From IMG/VR virus record IMGVR_UViG_3300034374_005944, positions 1 to 27,440 of that record: a stretch of 27,440 bases of DNA; one strand, 5' to 3'. Made by a program: the position numbers and the translations under genes. Every line of letters starts with the position of its first letter. Position 1 is the stretch's first letter. Below, piece after piece: positions 23,957 to 26,650 of this stretch. The notes under the pieces are model-generated. The model saw only the letters and a program-made list of their open reading frames with translations. It did no database searches and had not been told where the DNA came from. Source of the stretch: a virus.

Positions 23957-24658
23957 ATGGAGGGATGGATTAAGCTGCATAGAAAGTTGTTAGAATGGGA
24001 GTGGTATGATGAGCCAAATACTTTCAGACTTTTTTTACATTGCTTGTTAAAGGCAAATCATAAGGACAAAAAGTATAGAGGAGATGTTATTAAAGCTGGT
24101 ACTTTTTACACATCCAGAGACCTACTTTCTAAGGAAACTGGGCTAACAGGTAGGCAGGTTAGAACTTCACTAAATAGGCTAAAAACGACCAACGAATTGA
24201 CCATTGAAAGTTCGAGGAAAGGAACAGTAATAGAGGTAGTTAACTATACCAAGTACCAAGTAGATGACCAACAGAACGACCAACAAACGACCAAGAGGCG
24301 ACCAACAAAAGGCCAACGAGCGACCACTAACAAGAATGATAAGAATGATAAGAATGATAAGAATAATAAAATAGAGTCTATCGACTCTACAAAATTAATG
24401 GCTTTTTTTAATGATACATTCAATAAAAAACATGAGGTATGTCCTCCAAAAACTATACAAAAATTTAGAAATTTGTTAAAGATGGGATTTACCAAAGGTC
24501 ATATTATGAGAGCAATGGTTACCGTAAGTAAAAATGATTGGCATATAAAAAATTATAATCATCAGATTACTATTGATTACTTTGCAGATGCTAATAACCT
24601 TAACAAGTGGGGTAATGAGGAGCCTCAGAAAGAATTAAAATATAATCCACATCTATAA
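23957..24658 (+). CDS. Replisome organiser / replication initiator (DnaD-type N-terminus), contains origin
   Basis: A 233-residue protein. I start at ATG 23957; an in-frame TTG 12 bases upstream would overlap the previous gene. The N-terminus (GWIKLHRKLLEWEWYDEPNTFRLFLHCLLKANHKDK) and following winged helix (TSRDLLSKETGLTGRQVRTSLNRLK... VIEVVNYTKY) match the phage replisome organiser N-terminal domain. Residues about 103-144 form a low-complexity linker rich in Gln, Thr, Arg, Asn, Asp and Lys; its DNA carries the iteron array, AT-rich repeats and hairpin. The C-terminal 90 residues (FNDTFNKKHEVCPPKTIQKF, GFTKGHIMRAMVT) likely contact the helicase. Expected role: bind the origin and load DnaB, encoded four bases downstream. 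Comparable to lambda O. Confidence 0.8.
   Translation: MEGWIKLHRKLLEWEWYDEPNTFRLFLHCLLKANHKDKKYRGDVIKAGTFYTSRDLLSKETGLTGRQVRTSLNRLKTTNELTIESSRKGTVIEVVNYTKYQVDDQQNDQQTTKRRPTKGQRATTNKNDKNDKNDKNNKIESIDSTKLMAFFNDTFNKKHEVCPPKTIQKFRNLLKMGFTKGHIMRAMVTVSKNDWHIKNYNHQITIDYFADANNLNKWGNEEPQKELKYNPHL
24265..24328 (+). repeat. Iteron-like array, six CGACCAAC-type words at 11-bp spacing
   Basis: Copies begin at 24265 (TGACCAAC), 24277 (CGACCAAC), 24288 (CGACCAAG), 24299 (CGACCAAC), 24310 (AGGCCAAC) and 24321 (CGACCACT). Intervals are 12, 11, 11, 11 and 11, close to one helical turn. An isolated exact copy lies at 24186-24193. The period is not a multiple of three, so successive copies are read in different frames and the pattern is not an amino-acid repeat. 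A single-face binding array for the initiator is the natural reading. Confidence 0.8.
24332..24367 (+). repeat. Four tandem 9-bp AT-rich repeats, candidate unwinding element
   Basis: AAGAATGAT occurs at 24332, 24341 and 24350, then AAGAATAAT at 24359 (one mismatch). They follow the last iteron by three bases and are AT-rich. Being nine bases long they also encode an (N/K/D) tripeptide repeat, so they could be just a protein linker. Position next to the iterons fits a DNA-unwinding element. Confidence 0.7.
24372..24389 (+). other. Perfect 7-bp inverted repeat beside the origin repeats
   Basis: TAGAGTC (24372-24378), loop TATC, GACTCTA (24383-24389). It follows the AT-rich repeats by four bases and has no T-run, so it is not an intrinsic terminator. 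It could be a protein-binding dyad or a primer/structure element of the origin. Confidence 0.6.
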
Positions 24659-24661
24659 ACT

Positions 24662-26029
24662 ATGGAACATAACATTTTTGACAAGGCTTTTGGCATAGCC
24701 TTAAATCTAAACAAAGAGGAGCAGAGTGAGTACATTAACCAAATGAAAGCTGAATGGTTTGAAAGTTTATTTCATAAAAATCTATTTAGAGCCATTACAA
24801 GCCTTGTTAGTGATAATCAGTATTTAGATATCATAAACATATCTCAATGGCTTAGAGAGAATAATTGCTTAGAAAAAGATACCATTGCTAAGCTGAGCAG
24901 GTTAACAACTTCTATTGAGTTCCATGAGACTCTAAACAAAGAGGGAGTATTGAATGAATGTTGGTATAAGTATTCGGTTAGGAAAGTTATGTTGATGCTG
25001 CAGAATGTCAATAATGAAGTAACGGGAGTTTCTCCGAGATCTCATTACATCCTGGAGGAGGTTAGTAAGATTAAGGACCTGTTAAGCGTAAATACTACAA
25101 TAAAAGAGGTTACTAACTTAGATAGCATTAATCATATATTGGAGAAACATGAGCAAGCAAAGTTAGGGATTCCTTTAGGCTTAGAATTGGGATGGAATGA
25201 TTTAAGAGGGCAGTTGATTCTGGAGCCTGATGACGTGATGATTGTTGGAGGTAGGCCGGCAATGGGTAAAACTGCATGGGCAGTTAGTTTGATTAGAAAC
25301 CTTTGTTTTAATGAGAATAGGGTTGTTGTGTTTTTTTCCTTAGAAATGGCCCATGATAGAATAGTGAGGAGGATTATAAGCAATGTATTGGGTATTAATT
25401 CTAACCATATTAAATACGGGCAATGCTCAGATATGGAGCTCCAAAGGATTGAGGATTTAAAAAGCAGTCCTGCATGGGATAACATTGTTATTTTTGATGG
25501 CAGCCATACAACAAAGGATATTGAGAGTAAATTGCAGTCTGTTAAGAATAAGGGCAAAGATGTTGGACTGTTTATGATTGATTACTTGCAAAAGATTATG
25601 CCAGGCAAAAGTGAGAACAGATACCAGGAGGTAACAAAGATATCCAATGATGTTAAGAGAATTGTAATGGCTCATAGAGTGCCTTGCATAGCATTGGCCC
25701 AATTGAGTAGGGATGTGGGTAGAACAGGAAAGAGGCCAAGTTTACCCGATTTAAAAGAGAGTGGAGAGATTGAGCAGGATGCAAGTATTGTTGGCTTTTT
25801 ACATAGGCCTGAGTATTACGACCAAACTGCAGATGAGAATGGGGAAAGCATGGAGGGAGTTGGAGAGTTTATTATTGCCAAGAATAGGGATGGAGCAGTA
25901 GGTATAACTAAAATGGATGTTGAGCTTGCAACATCGGAGTGGAATAACTATACAGAGAGGCAGACCATTGAGCAAAAGGTTGAGGATTATTATGCAGGAA
26001 TGACACCAAATAAAAATATACCTTTTTAA
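24662..26029 (+). CDS. dnaB: Replicative DNA helicase, DnaB family
   Basis: A 455-residue hexameric 5'-3' helicase. An N-terminal helical domain (1 to about 150) precedes the RecA-like core. The Walker A motif GGRPAMGKT is at 196-204 (Lys203, Thr204). Further signatures follow in order: FFSLEMAHDRIVRRI, the Walker B segment GLFMIDYLQKI, and the LAQLSRDVG / PDLKESGEIEQDAS motif with an acidic switch. The NRDG sequence (IIAKNRDGAVG) holds the expected arginine finger. Length is typical of DnaB. It begins four bases after the initiator's stop, as expected for a helicase loaded by that protein. Glu codons are mostly GAG. No intein or primase fusion. Confidence 0.95.
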   Translation: MEHNIFDKAFGIALNLNKEEQSEYINQMKAEWFESLFHKNLFRAITSLVSDNQYLDIINISQWLRENNCLEKDTIAKLSRLTTSIEFHETLNKEGVLNECWYKYSVRKVMLMLQNVNNEVTGVSPRSHYILEEVSKIKDLLSVNTTIKEVTNLDSINHILEKHEQAKLGIPLGLELGWNDLRGQLILEPDDVMIVGGRPAMGKTAWAVSLIRNLCFNENRVVVFFSLEMAHDRIVRRIISNVLGINSNHIKYGQCSDMELQRIEDLKSSPAWDNIVIFDGSHTTKDIESKLQSVKNKGKDVGLFMIDYLQKIMPGKSENRYQEVTKISNDVKRIVMAHRVPCIALAQLSRDVGRTGKRPSLPDLKESGEIEQDASIVGFLHRPEYYDQTADENGESMEGVGEFIIAKNRDGAVGITKMDVELATSEWNNYTERQTIEQKVEDYYAGMTPNKNIPF

Positions 26030-26041
26030 ATATAACAAATT

Positions 26042-26650
26042 ATGAAAGTTTTAAATTTATATGCTGGAATAGGTGGTAACCGTAGACTATGGGGAGATGA
26101 ACACGAAATAACAGCAGTAGAATTTGATGAAAAAGTAGCTGAAAAATATCAAGGGCTTTACCCTAATGATAAAGTTGTAGTTGCTGATGCTCATCAATAT
26201 TTGTTAGATCATTATACAGAATATGAAAATGGTTTTATTTGGACTTCGCCACCTTGTCAAACTCATAGCAAAGCTAATTATTTTATAAACTACATTACAG
26301 AAAGTAGATACCCTAAGATGGAACTTTGGCAAGAGATAATATTTTTAAAAACATTCTGTAAGGGTAAGTTTTGTGTTGAAAATGTAAAAGCATATTATGA
26401 GCATTTTATACCACCAACTGCAGAAATAGGAAGACATTATTTATGGGCTAATTTTGTAATACCACAAATAAAGCAGCCAAAAGGAGAAGTGGGCACAATG
26501 ATGAAACAATATGCAGGAACAAATAAGCATGCACATAGTAAACCATTAGCAGAGCGTAATATGGTAAATGCTGAGTTAGGCCTACATATTTTAGAAAGAG
26601 CTCAAGGAATTATTAAATCAAATTCAAGCAATCAAGGTAGTTTATTTTAA
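26042..26650 (+). CDS. Short C5 cytosine DNA methyltransferase
   Basis: A 202-residue protein with the C5-methyltransferase signatures: motif I (LNLYAGIGGNRRLWG, SAM binding), the catalytic motif IV TSPPCQTHS with Cys72, and motif VI ENV (Glu113-Asn114-Val115). GRHYLWANF near residue 140 takes the place of the usual motif VIII. It is far shorter than typical 300-400-residue enzymes, so the target-recognition domain must be small. Likely role: modify phage DNA against host restriction. About 13 of 17 Glu codons are GAA, whereas in the adjacent helicase GAG dominates, which suggests separate acquisition. Starts 12 bases after dnaB. Confidence 0.85.
   Translation: MKVLNLYAGIGGNRRLWGDEHEITAVEFDEKVAEKYQGLYPNDKVVVADAHQYLLDHYTEYENGFIWTSPPCQTHSKANYFINYITESRYPKMELWQEIIFLKTFCKGKFCVENVKAYYEHFIPPTAEIGRHYLWANFVIPQIKQPKGEVGTMMKQYAGTNKHAHSKPLAERNMVNAELGLHILERAQGIIKSNSSNQGSLF

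Follow-up and report, generated by a model that had tools for sequence, protein, structure and literature searches.

The six short direct repeats that run through the replication initiator gene of this phage are very probably the binding sites of the encoded initiator and, together with the AT-rich 9-mers that abut them, would form the phage origin. In comparisons across approximately 200 related phages, residues of the initiator change in step with the letters of the repeats. The identity of the array as a set of binding sites, which the preliminary description had already proposed, is well supported by this covariation, including in a hold-out set. The accompanying proposal, that the initiator gene upstream of dnaB contains an origin, gains support from the less stable DNA found directly 3' of the array.

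The window covers an entire IMG/VR virus record (27,440 bases) and represents a fragment of a phage genome that includes genes for capsid, portal, and replication proteins. The portal gene (97–1467) lies on the minus strand, opposite to almost every other gene in the record. The DnaD-like replication initiator gene (23957–24658, plus strand; ATG at 23957, 233 residues) is followed on the same strand by a gene for a phage DnaB-type replicative helicase (24662–26029; PF03796, E = 1e-61; PF00772, E = 2e-6). The gap between the initiator stop codon and the dnaB ATG at 24662 is three bases (24659–24661), not the four originally described. Beyond dnaB, a 202-residue open reading frame (26042–26650) resembles C-5 cytosine methyltransferases, but the match is confined to their N-terminal third (PF00145 positions 1–113 of 324).

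The initiator comprises a winged-helix DNA-binding domain, a disordered linker, and a small helical C-terminal part, and the array lies between the regions encoding the first and the last of these. Residues 1–138 give a profile match to PHROG 2514, "DnaD-like helicase loader" (E = 2e-33). No Pfam match was obtained for the protein, and RepA_N (PF06970) was also unmatched in 45 homologs. In the AlphaFold2 model, residues 11–100 have a mean pLDDT of at least 92 per block, while most of the linker (107–139) falls below 50. The recognition helix is confidently predicted at residues 65–77 and the preceding helix at 54–61. Fold comparison of the winged-helix domain highlights the RepA_N structures 4pql (Z score 9.0 over 84 residues) and 4pt7 (8.8 over 86). 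This match is not specific, since CRP-type winged helices reach a Z score of 9.6, on par with the RepA_N structures. The family profile found only weak winged-helix matches among sequences of solved structures (best E = 0.03), and Foldseek alone returned nothing for the domain with E < 0.001. Four homologous loci (L023, L025, L050, and L087) have initiator frames of just 122–130 codons, closing within the array or shortly past it and apparently lacking the C-terminal part; these are possibly split genes or frameshifts. In Cellulophaga phage phi18:3, a gene annotated as encoding a DnaA protein (502–969 of locus L083) lies 1.5 kb upstream of the array-bearing initiator.

The array consists of six CGACCAAC-like words within the initiator coding sequence, all on the plus strand. 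Iteron 1 (24265–24275; word TGACCAAC, unit TGACCAACAGA) starts 12 bp before iteron 2 (24277–24287; word CGACCAAC, unit CGACCAACAAA), and all later intervals are 11 bp. Iteron 3 (24288–24298) has the word CGACCAAG and unit CGACCAAGAGG, and iteron 4 (24299–24309) repeats the word and unit of iteron 2. Iteron 4 is the in-frame copy, in which T at the first base would give a TGA stop. Iteron 5 (24310–24320; word AGGCCAAC, unit AGGCCAACGAG) is degenerate, with two mismatches, but keeps G at base 2 and C at base 5, and iteron 6 (24321–24331; word CGACCACT, unit CGACCACTAAC) is a last, partial copy. A lone additional CGACCAAC is present at 24186–24193, 79 bp upstream of the array, within the part encoding the DNA-binding domain. 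The word starts and an independent tandem repeat call (TRF, period 11/22 at 24266–24326) confirm the original description of six words at 11-base steps with a first interval of 12. The accompanying statement that all sites share one face of the helix is close, given a spacing near one turn, although at 10.5 bp per turn successive sites drift by approximately 17 degrees.

The lag-11 self-match score of the window gene is 17, a value that was also the maximum reached by dinucleotide shuffles at any lag from 7 to 39 (500 trials). Shuffling of synonymous codons reproduced this score at lag 11 in just 5 of 20,000 trials, in agreement with the earlier claim of selection at the DNA level. None of 5,000 synonymous shuffles produced five NGRCCA words in succession at intervals of 11 bases.

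The same spacing recurs among homologs, where the signal is much clearer than in the window gene. In 125 of 164 non-redundant homologous genes the best non-triplet lag is 11, and in a further 11 genes it is 22; the gene downstream of the initiator, taken as a control, has no lag-11 preference. The 126 genes with strong arrays have a mean lag-11 score of 24.3, compared with 9.7 in their synonymous shuffles, and for 82 of them the observed score was never reached in 300 such shuffles. No 11- or 12-bp array above threshold was called in 18 of the 164 genes. Aligned in register, the words follow the general form [TC]RAC[CA]ARCARN, with 101 distinct words in the 126 arrays. The spacing is held while the word and the linker peptide drift, in line with the preliminary description, which had proposed comparing spacing with linker drift in related phages. 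The pitch is 12 bp in 16 of 146 called arrays, and several of these follow the same residue–base code as the 11-bp arrays (described below), indicating a pitch of about one turn rather than strictly 11 bp. The 12-bp arrays, among them those of loci L140, L151, L155, L159, L165, L170, and L434, many from Bacteroidales or Prevotella, have all copies in a single reading frame; L170 contains approximately nine near-perfect copies.

An arrangement particular to phages of Bacteroidota had also been suggested, which is not what the homologs display. By genome assignment, the array hosts include Bacteroidota, Bacillota, Pseudomonadota, Chlorobiota, Melainabacteria, Campylobacterota, Balneolota, Elusimicrobiota, and others, although many of these genomes are metagenome bins and the hosts are tentative. 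Named phages with arrays include those of Staphylococcus, Listeria, Pseudomonas, Vibrio, Cellulophaga, Lactobacillus, Salmonella, and Escherichia, and 11-bp repeats have already been published for gene 18 of phage L (PMC8022706).

Bases 2 and 5 of the word are constant inside arrays and variable among them. A covariation scan pairing all N-terminal-domain residues with all word positions, across 99 loci, identified one residue for each of these two bases. Residue 66 covaries with base 2 (Z = 24.2), where Gln is paired with A in 56 of 56 loci and Arg or Lys with G in 29 of 29. Residue 54 covaries with base 5 (Z = 24.4), with Arg paired with C in 59 of 62 loci and Leu, Ile, Tyr, or Val nearly always with A. 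The next-best residue column for either base has Z < 8. Gln–adenine and Arg/Lys–guanine pairings are classical protein–DNA contacts, and by our own alignment we take residues 66 and 54 to be equivalent to CAP Glu181 and Arg169. In the window, Arg66 (codon 24152–24154, plus strand), at the N-terminal end of the recognition helix, is predicted to set base 2 as G, and Arg54 (codon 24116–24118, plus strand), the first residue of the helix before it, to set base 5 as C. Every copy in the array obeys this code.

The code was examined further in 57 hold-out loci, for which the word register was assigned without regard to whether base 2 was A or G, or base 5 A or C. Blinding was partial because a register with both bases fully masked misplaces rotated words such as CAACTAACAAG. 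For residue 66, Gln was paired with A in 26 of 26 loci and Arg or Lys with G in 11 of 12 (Fisher p ~1e-8), and for residue 54, Arg with C in 26 of 30 and Leu or Ile with A in 20 of 25 (p ~3e-9). Four T calls look like register slips, and loci in which residue 66 is Ser, Asn, or Asp gave no clean base rule in this analysis. On a tree built without columns 66 and 54, residue 66 switches class 36 times. Among well-supported independent pairs, the base shifts the same way in six to seven of seven cases for residue 66 and the opposite way in none (p ~0.03), and the same way in four of four for residue 54 (p ~0.125); with so few pairs these values are modest. Given the number of changes on the tree and the concordance of the paired base shifts, common descent is not the explanation of the code. 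The covariation thus makes a docking code readable from sequence alone.

Directly beyond the last iteron, the window contains four AT-rich 9-mers, three copies of AAGAATGAT followed by AAGAATAAT (24332–24367, plus strand; identified by TRF), which form a probable unwinding element. They begin exactly 11 bp after the start of the last iteron, and the first AAGAAY likewise lies exactly 11 bases past the start of the last word in 57 of 82 homologs. Easily melted DNA adjoins the repeats in the homologs as well as in the window. Mean stability across the homologs is lowest in the 50 bp directly 3' of the array (-1.125 compared with approximately -1.27 kcal/mol per step), a stretch whose median stability rank is in the lowest 1.7% within 900 bp on either side. 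The 9-mers did not fit a DnaA-trio by eye.

Codon usage in this stretch is also distinctive. Lys-Asn pairs 3' of the array are encoded by AAGAAT in 232 of 246 cases, compared with 27 of 168 in the rest of these genes; in the downstream gene the count is 21 of 147. A particular sequence appears to be kept in the (AAGAATGAT)n stretch, beyond AT-richness, since AAA would give more AT. The Lys-Asn-Asp stretch, at 24332–24367 in the window and in homologs, keeps AAGAAT while the neighboring iteron word varies freely. Judged by this codon bias, the stretch is a second DNA-level element, and its constancy while the word changes could mean that the element is itself read, perhaps as a single strand.

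The window array belongs to a known kind, that of Salmonella phage L gene 18, in which six imprecise 11-bp repeats, TGTCCAACGGA, have been called the likely origin (PMC8022706). In Sf6, a putative origin of this form and pitch is annotated in the homologous gene. The initiators of phage L (gene 18), Shigella phage Sf6 (gene 43), and Escherichia phage HK022 (O) are homologous to that of the window, aligning over 97–98% of its N-terminal domain (E = 1e-6 to 7e-5), and as in the window the 11-bp repeats lie inside the gene with a DnaB-type helicase gene directly downstream. The enterobacterial phages differ in having short clusters of approximately three copies with a gap between, a different word, and no (AAGAATGAT)n.

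More distant systems share parts of this arrangement. In lambda, the origin also lies in the initiator gene, O, and its iterons are joined to an AT-rich region. However, the four lambda iterons are 18 bp long with starts 20, 24, and 23 bp apart, give no lag-11 signal, and serve a host DnaB loaded by P. Lambda iterons are thus longer and more widely spaced, as first noted, and the window spacing of 11 with one 12 does not fit the lambda type (approximately 18 bp at 20–24 bp spacing). RepA_N plasmid initiators (pSK41, pTZ2162; PLE RepA) bind repeats at their own origins (PMC7145576) and resemble the window initiator in their N-terminal winged-helix fold, but their repeats are described as semi-palindromic around a poly-A tract, in contrast to the plain direct repeats of the window. 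The replisome organizers of TP901-1, Tuc2009, and 80alpha are annotated replication proteins, and for Tuc2009 and 80alpha an origin within the gene is noted, but they have other DNA-binding domains and best lags of 15 or 30. Together with the phi11 initiator, they were rejected as precedents, having other DNA-binding domains and no 11-bp array.

Covariation reveals coevolution of a protein with its binding sites, not origin function as such, and the array sits within the replication operon. It could thus be an operator through which the initiator represses or times its own operon, with replication starting elsewhere. We consider this improbable, given the position of the array in the middle of the gene, the low-stability 9-mers at a fixed distance after it, and the annotation of the homologous sites in Sf6 and phage L as origins; repression from a downstream site is possible, yet needs no abutting unwinding element. 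Less probable again is binding of the repeats by some other host or phage protein, such as a partition or nucleoid protein. ParR-type partition proteins and RepB of pMV158 also use 11-bp direct repeats, but here the bases covary with residues in the recognition helix of the initiator in whose own gene they sit, across many host phyla.

The overlap of the array with coding sequence leaves a further mark. Units of 11 bases pass through all three reading frames, so that a word starting with TAA or TGA would produce an in-frame stop in every third copy. Among 61 arrays with such a stop-triplet word, 187 of 216 out-of-frame copies have T at the stop-forming base and none of the 73 in-frame copies does; 53 of the latter have C instead. 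The absence of in-frame T is imposed by coding, and the informative figure is the retention of T elsewhere. Read from these counts, the DNA word is maintained against the coding constraint and yields only where forced.

These patterns bear on whether the period is a by-product of selection on the peptide, a disordered linker rich in Asn, Gln, Thr, and Lys. The linker is indeed of low complexity, and the 12-bp arrays could be peptide repeats; the original argument that the spacing rules out peptide repetition accordingly stands for the 11-base arrays but not for the 12-bp ones (approximately one in nine array-bearing homologs). Selection on the peptide is nevertheless very unlikely as a general account: the 11-base signal is lost in synonymous shuffles, the frame cycles along the array, stops are avoided as above, the arrays use a great diversity of words (101 in 126), and the bases track the identity of residues in the DNA-binding domain. 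Least probable of all is a functionless minisatellite, for although slippage does generate tandem repeats, gain or loss of one 11-bp unit would shift the C-terminal frame, yet the last five copies keep the frame pattern 2-1-0-2-1 in 72 of 126 arrays (so slippage is not what keeps the copies alike), and the covariation with residues 54 and 66 on the tree contradicts it.

With the array read as initiator-binding sites within an origin, a mechanism can be proposed, in which we infer physical binding from the code and strand opening, helicase loading, and origin activity by analogy to lambda O, which binds iterons beside an AT-rich region. The winged-helix domain would read each word, with residue 66 of the recognition helix responsible for base 2 and residue 54 for base pair 5. 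Several initiator copies may bind head-to-tail, one per helical turn, in an assembly that would strain the DNA and help to melt the 9-mers just downstream. The remaining C-terminal part of the initiator could then recruit the phage DnaB encoded by the next gene. The GC skew of the window has no switch at the array and tracks gene direction only. A literature search, with subscription papers outside its scope, returned neither binding or footprint data nor mapped replication starts for any 11-bp-spaced member, and nothing on the 9-mer or on 11-bp phage iterons beyond phage L.

The cross-phyla pitch, the recognition code, the stop avoidance, and the conserved 9-mer were unreported in the literature searched (again with subscription papers outside it), and the code and the stop-avoidance pattern appear new. 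The evidence is about evenly balanced as to whether these loci represent a very widespread origin class, with hosts in at least eight phyla, in which an initiator filament of one turn per subunit forms on four to seven short words, with a simple two-residue code (66/base 2, 54/base 5) through which word and protein can coevolve and a (AAGAATGAT)n unwinding element conserved at the DNA level. For a large share of uncultured tailed phages, the origin location and the binding word would be predictable from one gene. The arrays also provide a natural data set of a DNA-binding protein and its sites changing together while the sites overlap the protein's own coding sequence, with the compromise between the two apparent at in-frame stop codons, and raise the testable question of what holds the AT-rich element to one exact sequence across phyla.
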